A stretch of DNA of 37,334 bases from Chloroflexota bacterium (GTDB taxonomy: Bacteria > Chloroflexota > Anaerolineae > Promineifilales > Promineifilaceae), in NCBI GenBank assembly GCA_003696605.1, contig RFGV01000058.1, positions 1 through 37,334 of the forward strand. Reading direction: 5' to 3'. Below, piece by piece: positions 24,927-37,334 of the stretch. Position 1 is the stretch's first letter, and every line of letters starts with the position of its first letter. The notes beneath the pieces are model-generated. The model worked only from the letters and a program-made list of their open reading frames with translations, was not told the DNA's origin and did not search any database. The position numbers were made by a program, and so were the translations under genes.

Positions 24927-26119
24927 TATTGCACCTCTGGCTGATTGGCAGGAATATGTGCTAATGATCCTGTCAATAAGGCGCGATGCAGCTTTTGGGC
25001 AGATGCTTGCCATGTCCATTGGCGCGCAACTTGTGCGGCGTCGGCAGCAAGGCGGGGCAGCTGTTGGCGGTTTTCCCAAAGCTGGTGCAGAGTGTGACGT
25101 ATGTGTACAGGGTCTGGGGATTCTATCCAGAAGGCGAAACGGCCGTTTCCCACCACTTCTGTATGACACACATTCCTCATAGCCAAAACCGGCATCCCCG
25201 CGGCCAAATATTCAAACAACTTGACCGGGCTAGATGCCTGGTACTTTATTAGCGAATGGGCTGGTAGCGAAGTAACGCCAACATGCGCCTGCGCCAGCCG
25301 TGTGGGGATTTCGGTGTGGGGTATTGGTGGCAGCACAGTCAGGGCTGACTTGTTGGCCTTTGCCAATGCCGTCAATCGGTCGGCATCATCCCCATCGCCA
25401 ATTAACGTCAGTGTGAAACGTGCGCCTTCCTTATTGGCAGCAATAACAGCTTCTGCTAACGGGGCCAGATTTCGTTCTCGCATTAAACGGCCGATGTAAA
25501 TGAGCTGAATTGGTTCGTCTGGTGCAGGCCATTGTCGCTGTTGCTGGCAGGGAGCAAACTGTTCTGGCAGGACGCCAGATGGCCAAATACCCCATAGCTG
25601 GTGGGGTGGAATTTGCACCAGGCGGGCCATACGCGGGGTAATGGCGGTTTGTCCATCGGCCAGACGTGTGGCCAGTCGATACACAAGCCGGTAAAGTTGT
25701 CGGCGCAGGCGTAATTTGAGCGTGCCCTGGCTGAAGTCGGGAAGATCGCGTGAATCCATGACAAAAAACGGCCGTTTTTCGCCCCACATCTGCCGCCAGA
25801 GCATCCACGGGAACAGCCACAATGCCGAAATTTGATGAAACAACACCACATCCACATCCTGAATCATCTGCCATAACAGACGCCACACCCCCAAATGAAA
25901 TACCCATTGCCCCCAAAAATACACAGGGGGATGGGGAACACAACAAATCTCTACACCGTTGCGTGTATAACGGTCCGGGCTTCCCTTGCCGATCAGGCAA
26001 ACACGCCAACCCAACTGGTGCAGTTCGGCAGATGTGGCCAGCCAGGTAATAGCATCCAGACTGGTGCGGGGATTAATGGTAGAAACCCAGAGCAAAAACG
26101 GCCGTTTTTCTTCCCTCAT
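24926..26119 (-). CDS. GT4-like glycosyltransferase
   Basis: This protein of about 397 residues begins MREEKRPFLLWVSTINPRTSLDA. It has a donor domain with IQLIYIGRLMRERNLAPLAEAV, FTLTLIGDGDD and SPVKLFEYLAAGMPVLAM, matching GT-B family 4 enzymes. The N-terminal KRPF and an internal EKRPFF are both coded by full AAACGGCCGTTT palindromes (26098 and 25768), and VGNGRFAF by another (25139). ATG 26119 overlaps the TGA of the polymerase gene (ATGA). It probably acts on the lipid-linked repeat unit. Confidence 0.86.
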   Translation of the reverse strand: MREEKRPFLLWVSTINPRTSLDAITWLATSAELHQLGWRVCLIGKGSPDRYTRNGVEICCVPHPPVYFWGQWVFHLGVWRLLWQMIQDVDVVLFHQISALWLFPWMLWRQMWGEKRPFFVMDSRDLPDFSQGTLKLRLRRQLYRLVYRLATRLADGQTAITPRMARLVQIPPHQLWGIWPSGVLPEQFAPCQQQRQWPAPDEPIQLIYIGRLMRERNLAPLAEAVIAANKEGARFTLTLIGDGDDADRLTALAKANKSALTVLPPIPHTEIPTRLAQAHVGVTSLPAHSLIKYQASSPVKLFEYLAAGMPVLAMRNVCHTEVVGNGRFAFWIESPDPVHIRHTLHQLWENRQQLPRLAADAAQVARQWTWQASAQKLHRALLTGSLAHIPANQPEVQ

Positions 26120-27477
26120 GCCACTTCCTCCCCAGCCGGTTCCACCCTCTGAACCTGATTCAAAACAAACCCCAACACACACCAATACAAAATCATAGGC
26201 ACAGCAAAATCCCACACCCGGTGATACCACAACCAAAACGGCCAAAACAGCGTAAACAACAACGTCCCATACAACAAAATCGCCAAATCAGTATGCTGCG
26301 CCCGCATTGCTTCGCGCCACAAACGCCCCACAAGCCACAACACAACACCAGCAAACGCTGCCAGCCCCGTCATCCCCATTTCCTGCATCATCACCAACAG
26401 ACTTGTTCCCGATGTCAGCCCGTAATACCCTTGCAACAACCCCTGACCAGCTATCCCCAACGAAACACTAGAACTGCGCGAACCCAATCCTGTGCCAAAT
26501 AAAAAGGTAACGCCATCCTGCTGAATAATGTTCCAGCCGTATCGCAAGGCAAAATTGCGCCCCAGCCGATACCGCCCGCCGCCTCGCCCGCCATCCGTAT
26601 CCAGATATTCCAGCGTTGTTTCCAAATTCAGGTATTCTTCAAATCGGCGCTTCCCCCTTCCCTCGGCAATAACAATGTTATATAGAGAAATAAACGCATA
26701 AGAAATTACAACAAATGAAACAACGTAAATTATCAATCGGCGCACCTGACCGCCTCGAATCATGTGAACGGATAATGTGCCCAATCCCAACAAAACAAGC
26801 ACCGCCGGAAATGCCTTGATTTCGCTCAGGGCACTGGCTGCCATACCACACCCCAAAGCGAATAGCAAAACTCGCCAGTTTCCAGTTACCAACCAGTTTC
26901 CTAAAGCCAGGCAAATCACAAATGCCAGGAAGAAGATAAGTGGCCCGACCCCCCGCCGGCCAAATGTTCCGGCCAGATCGTCCCCTGGTGTTTGTCCATT
27001 CAGATATTGCCATAGCTGGAACAGAAGGTTGGCGGCCAGTAGCCACATGCAAAATCGCCATAGTTGTCCGGCAAGCTTTTCTGGCCAGTAGGGATGTTGG
27101 TAGGCATAAAGCCCCATCATGGGGTATTTGAACATACGCATCCAACCCCATAAGGTGGCGCTTAATCCCTGTCCTTGTAAAACGGCCGAAGCAATGCCCA
27201 AAGTGGAAAGCCCCAGAATAAGAACGGCCGCTTTGGGGATGCGATTGAATACCAGCATTCGCAATACAGCCAAAACGATAACCAATATCGTGGCCACGTC
27301 CCCTACCCAGCGCAAGGAAGCAGGTAAATATCCCTTCCAGATAAAATAAGGTGTCAGCAACTCTGTGAAAAAGGCTACCAGCAAGAACAAATCGTACTGT
27401 ACCCAAAGGCCAGGGGTATAGCTCTTTTTATCCAGCCGCAAACGATAATATGGTGGAATAATGGTGCTTAGTCGCAT
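26116..27477 (-). CDS. Wzy-like O-antigen/exopolysaccharide polymerase
   Basis: The 453-residue protein is almost wholly membrane-embedded, with some ten to twelve hydrophobic segments. One larger extracytoplasmic loop (LETTLEYLDTDGGRGGG to LRYGWNIIQQDG) sits before a late cluster of membrane spans. This layout, together with FGTGLGSRSSS and a Gly-rich stretch, fits the O-antigen ligase/polymerase (Wzy_C-like) family, which joins repeat units on the outer face. Similarity in this family is low, so the call rests on topology and context between a sulfotransferase and glycosyltransferases. ATG 27477 has AAAGGA 8 nt upstream and overlaps the previous gene by 10 nt. Confidence 0.78.
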   Translation of the reverse strand: MRLSTIIPPYYRLRLDKKSYTPGLWVQYDLFLLVAFFTELLTPYFIWKGYLPASLRWVGDVATILVIVLAVLRMLVFNRIPKAAVLILGLSTLGIASAVLQGQGLSATLWGWMRMFKYPMMGLYAYQHPYWPEKLAGQLWRFCMWLLAANLLFQLWQYLNGQTPGDDLAGTFGRRGVGPLIFFLAFVICLALGNWLVTGNWRVLLFALGCGMAASALSEIKAFPAVLVLLGLGTLSVHMIRGGQVRRLIIYVVSFVVISYAFISLYNIVIAEGRGKRRFEEYLNLETTLEYLDTDGGRGGGRYRLGRNFALRYGWNIIQQDGVTFLFGTGLGSRSSSVSLGIAGQGLLQGYYGLTSGTSLLVMMQEMGMTGLAAFAGVVLWLVGRLWREAMRAQHTDLAILLYGTLLFTLFWPFWLWYHRVWDFAVPMILYWCVLGFVLNQVQRVEPAGEEVA

Positions 27478-28355
27478 ACGTCGTATCCTTTGCGCCAAAT
27501 GGTCAGGCGACGTTGTAGCCAGGTTTCCACTACGCGCACATCATCTACCAAAAATTCCCAGATAAGCTGGCGAAGTTCTGGCGAAAAATAGGGTTTTTTG
27601 TCCAGATGGCCGGAAAGGCGACGGCGTACTGGTTGGCGAATGGTAGCGGGAATAAACGGCCGTATTGCCTGAAATGCACGAGTGTGGACAAGTTTTCGGA
27701 TGGTATCGTGGCGCAAGTACCAATGGCCAGTGGTTTGATGCCGTACCACTGGCTCATCAGTGGGAAAGGCATGGGGATCGATGCCCAAAAAGCGGGCGAC
27801 CTGGTGCAGGGTGGTTGTCTGATCAGCTATGTAGTCCTCGAATATGAGCAAGAGGATGTTTTCGGGGGGGAAGTGGCGCCGATACGGCCGTATTTGTACG
27901 GCATATCGGCTACGGTTGATATAGCAGGGGTAATCGAAAACGGCCGTTTCCGGTGGTTCCTTAATCCATCCCCGCACCAGATCATGCGCATAACCAGAAA
28001 TAACCCGCTCTACCGGTTGCCGCATGATGTAAATCAGCTTCAAATCCGGGTTATATGCCTGCAACCGGGCTGGAGTTCCTTGCCATTCCGGCAAAAAAGT
28101 GTACATCGTGGAAGCCTCTCCCAACAGTTGGCCAGGCAAAGGATCAAACAACCGGTGATATTCATCCAGGCGCGACTGCCAATCTGTGACAGCATTAAAG
28201 AAACCCGGCTCCTTGATACGGGCAAAGCAAACCTGCGGGTGTGCAGCCAGTTGTGCAGCCAGGCTGGTTGTGCCGCACTTTTGTGCCCCAATGATCATGA
28301 AGTCAACCCGCTTCACATCTGTTCGCTTATTTTTCGTCTTGTAGTGCACGACCAT
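27468..28355 (-). CDS. Sulfotransferase (Sulfotransfer_1 / heparan-sulfate-type)
   Basis: The protein of up to 295 residues has VDFMIIGAQKCGTTSLAAQL, the classic PAPS 5'-phosphosulfate loop. It also has KEPGFF, the GEASTMYTF segment and LIYIMRQPVERVISGYAHDL, the 3'-phosphate-binding motif. The order closely follows heparan-sulfate-type sulfotransferases that act on polysaccharide. The start is not settled: ATG 28355 gives a 29-nt overlap with the upstream gene, whereas GTG 28316 would begin just before the conserved domain. It lies next to the polymerase gene and is the strongest of the four sulfotransferase matches. Confidence 0.88.
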   Translation of the reverse strand: MVVHYKTKNKRTDVKRVDFMIIGAQKCGTTSLAAQLAAHPQVCFARIKEPGFFNAVTDWQSRLDEYHRLFDPLPGQLLGEASTMYTFLPEWQGTPARLQAYNPDLKLIYIMRQPVERVISGYAHDLVRGWIKEPPETAVFDYPCYINRSRYAVQIRPYRRHFPPENILLLIFEDYIADQTTTLHQVARFLGIDPHAFPTDEPVVRHQTTGHWYLRHDTIRKLVHTRAFQAIRPFIPATIRQPVRRRLSGHLDKKPYFSPELRQLIWEFLVDDVRVVETWLQRRLTIWRKGYDVCD

Positions 28356-30318
28356 AACGAATCACTATTTCCATAGTAGTGTGTGGCGGAAGTTCAACAT
28401 CGAGGCGTAAAAAGCCATTAGCCAGGGTATAAGGAAAAGAACGGCCGTTTACCACCACATCTTTAATAGGCACATTTAACGGCTCTTCCTTCTGCACGTG
28501 ATACACCCGCCGTTCATCCGATTCATTGACCACAATCAAATGATTACTGGAAAACATCCAGACATCCACACTCCCATCATCATTTTGCTTTTCCAGATAC
28601 AACCGACGCACAATATTCCCCAAACTCAGCCATGTCACATCGCCATACAACCCATTTATCTGGTCAGCAATCGGGCTAAACGAATCAATCCCACCAGAAA
28701 ACAACTCTCCTACATGAGAATTCAGCAAAACCGGCCTATCCAGAAACAAACGATACACGGGCGTCAGCGGATCATATAAGGCAGGATCGGGAATAGGCCG
28801 ACGGCGAACCAGGGGAAATCCGGCATATTCAAACGTTGCCGGATACATCAGATAGTCCCACCGATCTGAACCAGGGGCATCCAGCGGTTTGATGTTTCCC
28901 TGCACCACAGCCAGATAGTTGTATTGCTTAAGCACCTCAAAGGTGGGCGCAGGAGAAATACCCCAAGGAAAAACCATAATCCGGTCAAAGGGAATACCTG
29001 TGCGGGACTGATGCAAAATAAGACGGGAGAGACCTTCTTTAATATCGGCTTCTTGCTCAAAGAGTGGCCGGGCTGGCCATTGGTCTGTTTCGTCTGTCTC
29101 GTATCGGTAAAACTCGTATCCGTCAGCATTGTTGCCATGTTGCACCAGGGAAAAGTATTCTGGATATTGCTTAAAGAGAGAGACAATGCCACCTTCAGAC
29201 GTTTCCCAGTAACGTGGAATAAACGCAATGGTTGTATGAAAATTATGCTGTTGCATCTCGGCCAGTAATAAGCGATAGTCCATGAAACGGAGTGAGCCGC
29301 TCATGTTGTTTTGCAAAGGAGGGTCGTCTATGGTGAGGTTGGCGTAATCTTCGTCCCGGTGCCAGACTTCGTTGCCTAGCATGTAGCGCATGGCAAACAT
29401 GAGGGGGATGATTTTGGTAAAGTCGGTCTGGCTGAAATAAAGTGTGGTCAGGGTTGCTTCGTCAATGGATTCGGCAGGCATACCGGCATCGAGAAAAATC
29501 CAGCCTTGCCCCATTGGCTGTGCGGCAAAGATGGTATAGGGTTGTCCGTTATTGTCGGTGGCTGTGATGAGGGGGATGAAGGAATCGGCCGTTTTGGCCA
29601 CCAGTGCAAAATCTGCCTGCCGTATTGGTCGGTCAAACTCAATGTGCTGATCGGTAAATTCTCGTGTTATCTGAGGCATGGCAGTGGTAACGTACCATTC
29701 TCGCTGGCTATCTTCGGGAGAAATAACGGCCGTTATTCCATCCTCTGTCAGCTCTTGCACAGAAGACAAATTCGACCATCGAGTCAACTTGCTCACAAAT
29801 ACCCCAACGCCACCATAAACCACAGCCTGCCGCAACAACGACAGTTCCGCCGAATCAAAATTGGCTGGGCGCAATGTATTGCTGCTAATACCAATCAGCC
29901 GAAAATAATCACCAGCCCGATCCCGCAAAAGGTCATCGGTCAACTCCACCTGGCTGACATCCACACGGCGGCACAACAAACCATAATAAGTGGCAATGCG
30001 ACAAAAATTGGTATCGAAAGGCTGGGGGGCTGCACTGTCATAAAGGAGGAGCACATCGGTTATATCAACTTTTTGGGAAGAAGCAGGTTGAAGTTGGGGC
30101 AAGGTGTTGGCTCGTGTGGGGGCGAGGTCAAGGGAAAGGGTAGCATTTGAAGCAGTGGCAACAGGAATAGGTGTGGGATCGAAAAGTGTGGTACGAGGGA
30201 AAACGGCTGTTTCCGCCCCATCACCACCTGCCAGCAACGCACCAGCCATCACCACCAGCCCCCCCAACAACAAAGAAAACAACAATACACCAGCCCATTC
30301 CGCCCTACGTGTCACCAT
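28327..30318 (-). CDS. Membrane-anchored polysaccharide-deacetylase-like protein
   Basis: The 663-residue protein has an N-terminal membrane segment near residues 9-30 and then a Thr/Pro-rich linker. A domain of about 250 residues follows (DVLLLYDSAAP to QPMGQGWIFLDAG) that looks like a glutamine-amidotransferase or Rossmann-type fold. At about residues 329-334 comes TIDDPP, and near 394 SLVQHGNN, which resemble the metal-binding Asp pair and His of NodB/CE4-type deacetylases. The end is beta-rich (VDVWMFSSNHLIVVN). Activity on the exported glycan is inferred. ATG 30318 lies two bases beyond the previous stop; TTG 30324 is an alternative. A decayed motif copy, AAAACGGCTGTTTCC, sits near 30200. 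Confidence 0.65.
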   Translation of the reverse strand: MVTRRAEWAGVLLFSLLLGGLVVMAGALLAGGDGAETAVFPRTTLFDPTPIPVATASNATLSLDLAPTRANTLPQLQPASSQKVDITDVLLLYDSAAPQPFDTNFCRIATYYGLLCRRVDVSQVELTDDLLRDRAGDYFRLIGISSNTLRPANFDSAELSLLRQAVVYGGVGVFVSKLTRWSNLSSVQELTEDGITAVISPEDSQREWYVTTAMPQITREFTDQHIEFDRPIRQADFALVAKTADSFIPLITATDNNGQPYTIFAAQPMGQGWIFLDAGMPAESIDEATLTTLYFSQTDFTKIIPLMFAMRYMLGNEVWHRDEDYANLTIDDPPLQNNMSGSLRFMDYRLLLAEMQQHNFHTTIAFIPRYWETSEGGIVSLFKQYPEYFSLVQHGNNADGYEFYRYETDETDQWPARPLFEQEADIKEGLSRLILHQSRTGIPFDRIMVFPWGISPAPTFEVLKQYNYLAVVQGNIKPLDAPGSDRWDYLMYPATFEYAGFPLVRRRPIPDPALYDPLTPVYRLFLDRPVLLNSHVGELFSGGIDSFSPIADQINGLYGDVTWLSLGNIVRRLYLEKQNDDGSVDVWMFSSNHLIVVNESDERRVYHVQKEEPLNVPIKDVVVNGRSFPYTLANGFLRLDVELPPHTTMEIVIRYGRALQDEK

Positions 30319-30320
30319 TA

Positions 30321-31826
30321 TCAATACGCCCGCACACCATTCTGTTCTGCTCGATTGACCACCACACCAATCGAACGAACATTCACATTCAAAAGCTGAT
30401 CACGCACCGCCACCACAGCCTCTCGGCGCGAACGCGTACGCGCCACCACCAAAATCACATGATCCACCTGTGGCGCCAACACAGCCGCATCCGTCACCGA
30501 CAACAATGCCGGTGTATCCAGCAACACCACATCATACGATTCCTTCAGCTCCGCCAACAGCTCCCACATCCGCGCAGAACCTAACAATTCCGTCGGATTG
30601 GGTGGCAACGGACCACTGGGAATAACAGCCACTCGCGGAAAAGCTGTTTCCTGAATCACATCAACCAATGAAACACCTTCGGCCAACGCACTTGTCAGCC
30701 CCAAATCATTGGGCAGGTCAAAAATTTTGTGCATAGTGGGCAACCGCATATCACAATCCACCACAGCCACCCGCCGTCCCGATTGAGCAATAATCACTGC
30801 CAGATTGGCGACAATAGTAGATTTGCCTTCACCACGTTCGGCACTTGTCACCAGCAACGTATAGGGGCTTTGTTGCTGGTCAGGACTCAGAATATTGGTG
30901 CGTAGTCGCCGAAACGCCTCCAAATGGGGTTGAAAGCCATTTCCCAAATGAACAATCTGTAATTTGCCATTTTCAGCATCCGGAATCTTGCCCAATGTGG
31001 ACAAGCGAGTAGTTTCTTCGATTTCTTGTGTGGTGTAGAGGCGTGTATCTAAATTCTCGAACAAAAACGCCAGGCCAATACCACCAACCAGACCACCCAA
31101 TATCCCCATTGCCAGGTTCAGGTCATAACGAGGGCGAGCGGGTTGTCTGGGTGTGTAAGCCGGCTCAACGACAGAAACTGTGTTGGCCCGTAATGCCTCT
31201 CCTACCCGTGCGTTTTCGTATTGCTCAAGCAGGGTGGCATAAGTACGCTCTTTCAGGGCAATTGATTGGCTGGCGGCCGTAATGGCCACTGAATTGTCAG
31301 GGTCCTCAATGAGTAATCGTTCGTATTCCTGGCGAGCTGTGTTGAGTTCTCCTTCAATTTGCTGAATTTGTTGGCGCAAAATTTCCTGTGTGGTTTGCCC
31401 GTTGCCGCTATATAGCTGTCGGCTTTGCTCAATGAGTAAAAAGGCAGCCGCATCGGCTACCTGACGGGCTGTGGTTGGATCGGTGGCTTCGGCTTTGACT
31501 TTGATGAGTTCGGTGTCGGGAATGAGCTCTACTTTGATAACCGGCGGTTCGCTTAAATTGAGTTGTTGCATGATGTCGCTGCGAACGCTGCCGCTGGTGA
31601 TGATTTGGGCGTAGGTGTTGATAAGTCGTTCGGTGTAGCCGATATCCGGACGGCCGTATTCGATAACGCCGCTACCTATTGTTGCCACGCGCAATGTGGT
31701 GGCAGAAACATAAACGGGTGTTGTGGTAAAAGTGAAAATCGCCGCGATGGCTGTGGTAATAACGGCCGTTACCAACACAATCCACCGCCGTCGCCACAAA
31801 ATAGACAAATACGTTCTCAATTCCAT
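30321..31826 (-). CDS. Fused Wzz / BY-kinase chain-length and export regulator
   Basis: The 501-residue protein has an N-terminal membrane span (about 14-36) and an extracytoplasmic Wzz domain. A second span (about 238-258) precedes a cytoplasmic P-loop ATPase with Walker A SAERGEGKST (about 328-337), Walker A' VVDCDMRLP and Walker B DVVLLDTPAL. This is the Wzc/CapAB-type tyrosine autokinase layout that sets polymer length. The usual C-terminal tyrosine cluster is reduced to one terminal Tyr (GVRAY). ATG 31826 is preferred, since GGGGGA lies upstream and TTG 31832 is less well placed; it follows the preceding stop by two bases. Position after the sugar-synthesis genes is standard for such loci. 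Confidence 0.92.
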   Translation of the reverse strand: MELRTYLSILWRRRWIVLVTAVITTAIAAIFTFTTTPVYVSATTLRVATIGSGVIEYGRPDIGYTERLINTYAQIITSGSVRSDIMQQLNLSEPPVIKVELIPDTELIKVKAEATDPTTARQVADAAAFLLIEQSRQLYSGNGQTTQEILRQQIQQIEGELNTARQEYERLLIEDPDNSVAITAASQSIALKERTYATLLEQYENARVGEALRANTVSVVEPAYTPRQPARPRYDLNLAMGILGGLVGGIGLAFLFENLDTRLYTTQEIEETTRLSTLGKIPDAENGKLQIVHLGNGFQPHLEAFRRLRTNILSPDQQQSPYTLLVTSAERGEGKSTIVANLAVIIAQSGRRVAVVDCDMRLPTMHKIFDLPNDLGLTSALAEGVSLVDVIQETAFPRVAVIPSGPLPPNPTELLGSARMWELLAELKESYDVVLLDTPALLSVTDAAVLAPQVDHVILVVARTRSRREAVVAVRDQLLNVNVRSIGVVVNRAEQNGVRAY

Positions 31827-35475: not shown

Positions 35476-35592
35476 CCTGTACTCCTTCTTTACCAGGCAA
35501 CAGGCAAGCCAAAATACCCATACACTGGCTCAATTGCAGCAAATCCACTCGATTGTGACACTAACTTGTGCTGCGTATCCCGCCCATACTGG

Positions 35593-35621
35593 CAAAAATG
35601 GGTAATAAACTTACATTTTTG
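35593..35621. repeat. Inverted repeat in the cluster leader
   Basis: CAAAAATG (35593-35600) pairs with CATTTTTG (35614-35621) around 13 nt. Outer GGC/GCC bases nearly extend the stem with a TT bulge. It lies about 120 bp before the first cluster gene, so a leader hairpin or operator is possible. Confidence 0.4.
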
Positions 35622-35721
35622 TTGCCCACAAAACACAGGCAACGAGAATAATTCCTGGTGAAATACGCTACTACACTATTCTATATTGATTAACTTTTGA
35701 ACTGGGCTTCTATGTGAGTAC

Positions 35722-35745
35722 GTTGCATTCCTGGCTTGATGCAAC
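35722..35745. repeat. Inverted repeat, possible operator
   Basis: GTTGCAT (35722-35728) and ATGCAAC (35739-35745) are perfect arms with a 10-nt spacer. Dyads of this size with a one-turn spacing are common binding sites for dimeric regulators. Function is not shown. Confidence 0.4.
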
Positions 35746-35886
35746 TCAGCAAAGAGGAAAACAGGCTTCGATTTAATAATGACGATATTTCTACCCCAAA
35801 TCTAACACAAAAAACTTACAAAATGACTTACGCAAAACTTTCGAGGGTTTTTAGGCAGCTAAAGAAAATAAACCTCTATTCCTGTG

Positions 35887-35892
35887 TATAAT
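35887..35892 (+). promoter_or_regulatory. -10 element (TATAAT) for the LysM pseudokinase gene
   Basis: A perfect TATAAT lies 60 nt upstream of the TTG start at 35952. No good -35 hexamer is found 16-18 nt further upstream, so an activator may be needed or the hexamer may be fortuitous. Confidence 0.4.
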
Positions 35893-35951
35893 AGAGAAGA
35901 TCGTTGTGTCAGGCGTGCCTACTTAGCCAATCCAAACCAGGAATCAAGCTC

Positions 35952-37334
35952 TTGAGTAATAATCTTTTTGGTCTCTACGTTGCTGAAACGGAATTAACCA
36001 GCCTTTCGGGAAGTCAGATATTATGGGGGCGGCATGTGAAAACGGCCGAATCAGTCCTCATTGAATTCCCTTTCTCTGAATCTGCACCGGCCAAAGATCT
36101 GGTGAGTCGCTGCCTGAAACGTGCCGACCTGCTAGGTCAGCTTTCCCATCCAGCATTGCCACGCGTACAGGAAACGGCCGTTACTCCTGAAGGCCTCCCC
36201 TACACCATCCTTACCCCAGCCCCCAAACGCACCCTCGCCGACCAGATAGCCCAATGGCAAAACCAACCCCCTGCACCTGTTTCTGCCCTGCACCTGGTTC
36301 GACAAATTGCCGAAGCCCTGAAAACGGCCGAATCAGCCAACCTGATTCACCACCACCTGCACCCTGCCCTTATCCTGCTTACCGAAGAAAACCAACCACT
36401 CATTACCGGCTTCACACTCCCCCCTCCCCCTCTCCCCCTCACTCTTCCTGCCGATCATCAACTGGATTACATCCCACCAGAATACAAACAAAATCAAACA
36501 CTCACCTTCCAAAGCAACATCTACACCCTGGGAATCATTTTATACGAACTACTCGCCGGACATCGCCCAAAATTGCCAATTTCCGAATGGGACATCTTTG
36601 AAACAAACACATTGCCACGCGAAATTCCATTGGACCAGGCCTGTCCAGGACTGCAACCAGCCACATATCAAGCGGTCAAGAACTGCCTCTGGCGACACAC
36701 CTGGGCTCGTTATGAATCATATGATTCGTTATTGGCGGCTCTGGACGAGGCAATTGCGGCTGAAGAATCTCCCCCACCGCCCAGACGGACCCTGGGATTG
36801 GCTATTCCCTGGCCATTAACCGGCATTGCTGGCGGAGTGATCATTTTGTTGTTGGCGGGAATGCTCTGGTTCAACGGGCGTCCTTCCAGTCCATTACCGC
36901 CCCCTACCCCTGTTCTTGTTACGGAAACGGCCGTTTTCACTCCCACCCCATCCCCATCTCCATCCCCTCTCGCCACTTCTCTACCTGCTCAAGTCATCCA
37001 AACCACCACTTCTGCAACAGCCACCCCTACCCTCTTGCCCACTTCCACTTCCACTCCTACCGCCACTCACACAAAAACACCCTCTTCTACCCCGTCAGCT
37101 ACGGCAACATCCATACTCACAAATACTCCCATCCCCACAGAAACGGCCGTTTGTACCCCCGCGCCCCCACCCGGCTGGCAACCCTACACCATTCAGGCTG
37201 GCGATACACTCTTCAACCTGGCCTTGCAAACAGGCACAACCGTCAGCCAAATAAGCAGTGTGAACTGCCTTGTCAACAATATTTTGACCGTCGGGCAAAC
37301 CATATGGCTACCCCCTCTCCCCACACTTCCCCCC
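35952..37334 (+). CDS. Transmembrane pseudokinase with extracytoplasmic Thr/Pro stalk and LysM domain (3' truncated)
   Basis: This is the only plus-strand gene, with 461 codons in the window and no stop before the edge. TTG 35952 has AGGA (35939-35942) 9 nt upstream; there is no ATG near. Residues 1 to about 275 follow the Ser/Thr kinase fold, but the catalytic elements are lost. The beta-3 Lys is replaced (VLIEFPF), the HRD loop reads HHH with no Asp or Asn (about residues 133-143), and DFG reads GFT; only the late segment NIYTLGIILYELLAG looks normal. A membrane span lies at about 280-308, then a 100-residue Pro/Thr/Ser stalk, then LysM (YTIQAGDTLFNLALQTGTTVSQI to GQTIWLPP). It may sense or anchor to the cell wall. 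Confidence 0.8.
   Translation, partial: MSNNLFGLYVAETELTSLSGSQILWGRHVKTAESVLIEFPFSESAPAKDLVSRCLKRADLLGQLSHPALPRVQETAVTPEGLPYTILTPAPKRTLADQIAQWQNQPPAPVSALHLVRQIAEALKTAESANLIHHHLHPALILLTEENQPLITGFTLPPPPLPLTLPADHQLDYIPPEYKQNQTLTFQSNIYTLGIILYELLAGHRPKLPISEWDIFETNTLPREIPLDQACPGLQPATYQAVKNCLWRHTWARYESYDSLLAALDEAIAAEESPPPPRRTLGLAIPWPLTGIAGGVIILLLAGMLWFNGRPSSPLPPPTPVLVTETAVFTPTPSPSPSPLATSLPAQVIQTTTSATATPTLLPTSTSTPTATHTKTPSSTPSATATSILTNTPIPTETAVCTPAPPPGWQPYTIQAGDTLFNLALQTGTTVSQISSVNCLVNNILTVGQTIWLPPLPTLPP

Follow-up and report, generated by a model that had tools for sequence, protein, structure and literature searches.

LysM-bearing transmembrane pseudokinases form a conserved family in the Promineifilaceae (Chloroflexota) and are genomically tied to secreted surface proteins

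The last gene in the 37,334-base stretch of Chloroflexota DNA analysed here (the window) encodes a protein with a degraded kinase domain, predicted to lie inside the cell, and a LysM domain, predicted to lie outside it. It belongs to a family of conserved transmembrane pseudokinases found in one Chloroflexota family, the Promineifilaceae as judged by the named relatives. In the genomes, its members are linked to secreted proteins bearing a C-terminal domain that resembles PPC and collagen-binding domains; a second pseudokinase is often present as well, as is a small membrane-anchored Ig-like protein. The family is real and conserved, its members are laid out like LysM receptors, and it is apparently new to the literature on bacterial pseudokinases. 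A search of the open-licence literature for a bacterial LysM pseudokinase returned none, matches for LysM and pseudokinase being mainly plant receptors, and LysM and Chloroflexi both go unmentioned in a 2025 review of bacterial pseudokinase families (PMC12599244).

A sequence-only reading of the window had proposed a LysM receptor-like pseudokinase with a Thr/Pro stalk, and this was borne out, with the layout holding across a family of orthologues (Table 1). The open reading frame lies where that reading placed it and is the only plus-strand gene, as claimed, other long plus-strand frames either overlapping a longer minus-strand frame or sitting inside this gene. From the proposed TTG start, which is preceded by AGGA nine bases 5', 461 codons are present in frame. 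A further in-frame TTG lies at 35904, and relatives mostly appear to begin about 5-10 residues upstream of the equivalent position, which leaves the precise start in doubt. The window spans the whole of contig C248, one of 705 in its genome (G000), and ends at base 37334; the 3' end of the gene is therefore missing. The tail of the window gene is of low complexity, and relatives have an extra P/T-rich tail of roughly 30-100 residues beyond the point of the cut. A search at DNA level with the final 135 bases, together with a comparison of ends for exact overlap against 15 loci of the same genome, found no continuation.

Table 1. Features of the pseudokinase gene and its upstream region (window coordinates)
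Feature	Position	Strand	Basis
LysM transmembrane pseudokinase gene	35952..37334	+	ORF, Pfam; 3' end cut by contig end
Cytoplasmic pseudokinase domain, residues about 1-281	35952..36794	+	PF07714/PF00069; AlphaFold pLDDT 87.3; PknB Z 25.5
E38 replacing beta-3 ATP-binding Lys (Lys72)	36063..36065	+	Alignment
R57 replacing alphaC Glu (Glu91)	36120..36122	+	Alignment; Arg/Lys in all covered clade members
HHH (H133-H134-H135) replacing HRD	36348..36356	+	Alignment; catalytic Asp -> His135
GFT (G153-F154-T155) replacing DFG	36408..36416	+	Alignment; metal-binding Asp -> Gly153
Single transmembrane segment, residues about 282-308	36795..36875	+	Hydropathy, sequence; Arg-Arg at N-terminal side
Thr/Pro-rich extracytoplasmic stalk	36876..37151	+	Sequence
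LysM domain, residues 412-454	37185..37313	+	PF01476, 40 bits
Divergent intergenic region, sugar transferase / pseudokinase	35476..35951	.	ORF map; promoter scan at chance level

The kinase fold is preserved, as the sequence-only reading had supposed. Both kinase models exceed their Pfam cut-offs (PF07714 at 43.4 bits, PF00069 at 36.4 bits), and the AlphaFold model, built from 24 sequences, has its best PDB match in PknB (rmsd 3.1 A over 248 residues). The best 60 matches in a sequence search of solved structures were active kinases and LysM proteins only. Across the membrane, the LysM match is also above its cut-off and spans model positions 1-43 of 43. The Arg-Arg pair N-terminal to the membrane segment is consistent with the kinase domain lying inside and the LysM domain outside. 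C401 and C439 are invariant across the aligned LysM-bearing relatives, a pattern that makes a disulphide between them possible.

Residue losses were read by alignment to active kinases of the same genome, and the earlier claim that the ATP Lys, the HRD Asp and the DFG Asp are gone proved correct at all three positions. Beyond these, L140 replaces the catalytic Asn171 and an Asn replaces Asp220, while the APE Glu and Arg280 are retained. In place of the VAIK Lys, alphaC Glu, HRD Asp, catalytic Asn and DFG Asp of an active Hanks-type Ser/Thr kinase, the window protein therefore has E38, R57, H135, L140 and G153. Relatives with intact catalytic residues had been named as a possible sign of a sequencing or assembly error in the window; most relatives do keep the HxD and DxG aspartates, but none keeps the Lys or the alphaC Glu. 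Such an error was ruled out as the source of the losses, Lys72 and Glu91 being lost clade-wide and the reading frame being intact over all domains.

Relatives were sought in 52 genomes of the same family, and 28 were examined with their surroundings. High-scoring relatives are 33-47% identical to the window protein, include orthologues with the same layout, and carry names such as Promineifilum, Ardenticatenia/Anaerolineae and Chloroflexota MAGs. In a tree of 108 kinase domains (LG+C20+F+G4), 43 pseudokinase domains form one clade (support 100/99) nested within active kinases. The clade holds three types: lone pseudokinases with LysM, pseudokinases that form the second domain of tandem proteins, and the type called here the second pseudokinase, which has an SH3 domain in both of the two members examined for domains. 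The window protein falls within a 31-row LysM clade (100/99) and a starred 7-row group (100/93), its closest grouping being with two g11 copies (98/77). Group labels were set by motif; two loci labelled 'second' (L153 and L157) are active-type kinase fragments and were excluded from the counts, and one labelled 'single' (L035) probably represents a tandem protein truncated at its contig end. No second pseudokinase was found in the window's genome, its other tree-placed matches falling with active-type kinases. A class-wide search of 396 genomes returned matches at 1e-56 to 1e-65 in six genomes outside the family; because intact kinases reach similar scores (for example, 9.5e-96 for locus L160 of G005, with Lys/Asp/Asp intact), we do not claim these six as members.

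The clade has a clear residue signature. Lys72 and Glu91 are absent from all covered members of the 43, one row not covering the region, and both are retained by the 63 related domains that form the active set. Loss of the ATP Lys happened a single time, at the clade's base. Glu or Asp stands at the Lys72 position in 28/43 rows and Arg or Lys at the Glu91 position in every covered row, a swap that, as read from sequence, may amount to a reversal of the ion pair. The Gly-rich loop is missing in most members. Among the lone, single-domain members, the HxD Asp is retained in 20/24, the Asn in 19/24 and the DxG Asp in 21/24. The window protein lies inside this clade with both defining residues lost, and has Asn at the Asp220 position as LysM members do. 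By its motifs it is among the most degraded members: it has HHH where most relatives have HHD, and only it and L055, among the lone LysM members, have lost all three of Lys72, Asp166 and Asp184. It nevertheless keeps 26 of the 28 columns that are invariant in other members, which indicates that the fold is constrained although catalysis is gone, as well as 41 of the 50 columns conserved at 90% (0.82, against a leave-one-out range of 0.81-1.0 for the others).

Seven relatives (L026, L032, L048, L051, L053, L150 and L151) are tandem proteins, in which an intact kinase is followed by a pseudokinase of the clade, a membrane segment, a stalk and LysM; in Pfam, for example, L048 shows two kinase stretches and one LysM. 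This fusion points to a kinase as the partner of the pseudokinase. The neighbours of three tandem proteins differ, that of L051 being a TgpA-like transglutaminase. Other loci in relatives (L144, L145, L147 and L161) each pack about five or six active Ser/Thr kinases in tandem into one stretch of 14-19 kb.

Clustering of neighbouring genes revealed a recurring order around the family: a small protein, the LysM pseudokinase, one or more secreted proteins, the second pseudokinase, and a further secreted protein. The small protein, found upstream of many relatives, has about 210 residues, a membrane segment and an Ig-like 'LLGPPD' region. One copy (L054:8025-8654) weakly resembles an anti-sigma factor model, at 22.2 bits, below the model's cut-off of 100. 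The secreted neighbours are large and often cadherin-like, with cadherin, Big_9, DUF11-like or PKD repeats, and the copies found by profile have in common a C-terminal domain of about 120 residues. The model of this domain (pLDDT 84.6) matches the collagen-binding/PPC domains of collagenases (Z 14.0, rmsd 2.0 A, 107 residues).

Three measures describe how closely this partner follows the family. Firstly, the secreted-protein cluster comes next in 18 of the 21 relatives with readable downstream DNA; in 16 of these a cluster gene is next on the same strand and in two the second pseudokinase intervenes, some cluster genes being cut by contig ends before their C-terminal domain. Secondly, the C-terminal domain is rare: it occurs in 35 of the 52 genomes, at 1-5 copies each, and 37 of the 69 listed copies lie within 15 kb of a clade pseudokinase, where rough arithmetic on position would give fewer than 1-2. 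Thirdly, 24 of the 25 genomes that encode a clade member with LysM have the domain, compared with 11 of the 27 others (Fisher p 1.8e-5, from a presence table compiled by hand and with kinship ignored). The three exceptions among the 21 (L036, L038 and L058) are copies that have no ectodomain, and their genomes also have no partner C-terminal domain. In these copies (L036:863-1861, L038:10519-11493 and L058:18312-19241) the gene stops at or before the membrane segment, and the next 1.5 kb contain no LysM. At one further locus (G025:C1:512412-519881), about 6 kb separate a kinase-like match from the partner domain.

The window's own genome has one copy of the partner domain, on another contig (C621:5834-7363), with its 5' end cut by the contig end. 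It scores the same as the copy adjoining the pseudokinase in G022 (2.6e-57 and 2.4e-57), and contig C621 carries the iterated palindrome of this genome, described below, which marks it as native. We think that C621 follows C248, though no sequence overlap proves it.

How such a protein might act is a matter for interpretation. The reading we favour, and hold at about even confidence, is that the window protein is a catalytically dead, wall-anchored receptor or adaptor for the surface-protein module, probably working through active kinases in trans. The LysM domain, outside the cell, would bind peptidoglycan or a related glycan and so place or gate the protein; the genome encodes peptidoglycan transpeptidases (8 matches). 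The kinase-fold domain, inside, would switch or recruit a partner rather than transfer phosphate, and that partner would most likely be an active Hanks kinase of the cell, such as is fused to the pseudokinase in the tandem relatives; Hanks kinases of the window's genome lie on contigs C582, C199, C230, C322, C349, C468 and C220. The output may be control of the making, exporting or holding of the neighbouring surface proteins.

The same context also fits a purely structural role, and a scaffold, with the pseudokinase domain as a docking platform for the export or anchoring of giant secreted proteins, is a possibility that we take seriously but consider less probable. A precedent exists in EssB/YukC, a transmembrane pseudokinase in which all three motifs are degraded and which has a scaffolding role (PMC12599244), and the window copy, with no catalytic residue left, would suit such a part. 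However, in seven relatives the pseudokinase is fused to an intact, active kinase, which suggests a signalling partner, and the neighbouring-gene clusters show no recurrent secretion machinery. EssB/YukC resembles the window protein in being a transmembrane pseudokinase tied to secretion, but is part of the T7SSb of Firmicutes, whereas our family is from Chloroflexota and has a LysM ectodomain; the two were compared by description only.

Many relatives keep the HxD and DxG aspartates, and these may bind nucleotide or have residual activity. The family as a whole might accordingly be read as a residual or altered enzyme that retains nucleotide binding or a non-phosphotransfer reaction, with the window copy as its extreme, and the bacterial pseudokinases SidJ and SelO do have new chemistry (PMC12599244). 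We judge this improbable, given the absence of Lys72 and Glu91 from every covered member and of the Gly-rich loop from most, and the further loss of Asp166, Asn171 and Asp184 in the window copy.

A regulator of the adjoining polysaccharide cluster, as the sequence-only reading had suggested in proposing a link between cell-wall state and polymer production, is very unlikely. The pseudokinase gene does diverge from the cluster across a gap of 476 bases, so the supposed shared region exists, but its single promoter-like site is the number expected by chance. By Pfam, the other window genes encode a sugar transferase, Wzz/AAA_31, an aminotransferase, a sulfotransferase and glycosyltransferases, and the chain-length, tyrosine-kinase-like and sugar-transferase genes lie adjacent. 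Around the 28 relatives, however, no homologue of any of these window genes occurs (E 1e-8). We also located the sugar transferase across the 52 genomes: the closest copies, 62-65% identical, are in Promineifilum genomes, and where both genes occur they occupy separate contigs or, in the near-complete G032, lie at 1.745 Mb (sugar transferase) and 3.490 Mb (pseudokinase), with 1.74 Mb between them. A conserved polysaccharide linkage was ruled out on these grounds, and the survey that had been suggested, for the same gene beside sugar-transferase operons, uncovered conserved linkage to secreted surface proteins instead. Within the cluster, two long frames (28327-30324, minus strand, 665 aa; 26116-27498, minus strand, 460 aa) have no Pfam match at 0.001 and are possibly a flippase or polymerase.

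A pseudogene decaying in this lineage is likewise hardly credible: the window branch (1.06) is the longest among close kin, further active-site residues are lost and three relatives have shed the ectodomain, yet the frame is open through the kinase domain, membrane segment and LysM, the conserved columns persist and the LysM still scores 40 bits.

Returning to the receptor or adaptor reading, known systems offer several points of comparison. NFR5 is a plant LysM receptor pseudokinase, and plant LysM receptor kinases carry an N-terminal, triple-LysM ectodomain; the window protein differs in having one LysM, at the C-terminus, with polarity reversed. Tandem kinase-pseudokinase proteins are known as the JAK type, and the seven tandem relatives also combine an active kinase with a pseudokinase in a single polypeptide, although with the active domain first, followed by pseudokinase, membrane and LysM, while the window gene has the pseudokinase alone. 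Plant AtLYK5 has LysM outside and a pseudokinase inside, as proposed for the window protein, a parallel in layout only for which we claim no shared ancestry, and acts in complex with the active LysM kinase CERK1 (PMC7300259). More tentatively than the receptor role itself, we suggest that the family could be a bacterial counterpart of such pairs of LysM pseudo-receptor and active kinase: lineage-specific dead LysM receptors, some of them kinase-fused, each devoted to giant surface proteins encoded close by. On this view, the ATP Lys would have gone first, with reversal of the Lys-Glu ion pair, and the other active-site residues later, lineage by lineage.

PASTA Ser/Thr kinases (PknB, PrkC, Stk1) are similar to the window protein in their Hanks fold, N-terminal kinase inside, one membrane pass and wall-facing ectodomain, but the window protein has no catalytic residues and bears LysM on a Thr/Pro stalk in place of PASTA. 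It reaches 61.7 bits with NCBIfam NF033483 (PASTA-domain Ser/Thr kinase), against a cut-off of 450, and has no PASTA match in Pfam. Bacterial pseudokinase families already described include ActPs1-3 (with MviN), GLW, CP1, DYD and DLHK; like the window protein, they have lost VAIK/HRD/DFG residues, and several have a C-terminal membrane segment (PMC12599244). Our family is not GLW, in which GLW replaces HRD (HHH in the window, HHD in most relatives), nor DYD, in which DYD replaces DFG and is paired with a beta-3 Arg (GFT and a beta-3 Glu in the window). DLHK and CP1 have no membrane segment, whereas the window protein and its LysM-bearing relatives have one. ActPs3/MviN, with a deletion in the activation loop and an ATP pocket occupied by aromatic residues, was set against the window family by description only.

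Bacterial pseudokinases are largely unexplored by experiment, and this family gives a readable evolutionary series from active kinase through tandem kinase-pseudokinase and lone pseudokinase to fully degraded pseudokinase. The PPC-tipped secreted protein offers bench scientists a specific, testable partner. Several named relatives are Promineifilum, and Ca. Promineofilum, a spelling variant of that name, denotes a genus of filamentous bacteria that abounds in wastewater plants (PMC10746286); surface proteins may matter for flocs and filaments there.

A separate observation concerns the genome itself. A HIP1-like iterated palindrome, AAACGGCCGTTT, occurs throughout the window (for example, at 36172, 36925 and 37141), and a search of the literature for its core gave no match beyond cyanobacterial HIP1. 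The 10-mer AAACGGCCGT gives 66 strand matches across the window, where 0.13 would be expected. The 12-mer occurs 0-3 times in each of G014, G020, G025, G035 and G043 and 0-2 times in ten genomes outside the family, versus 950 times in the window's genome (where a control pattern occurs 4 times), 1156 times in G040 and 788 times in G041.
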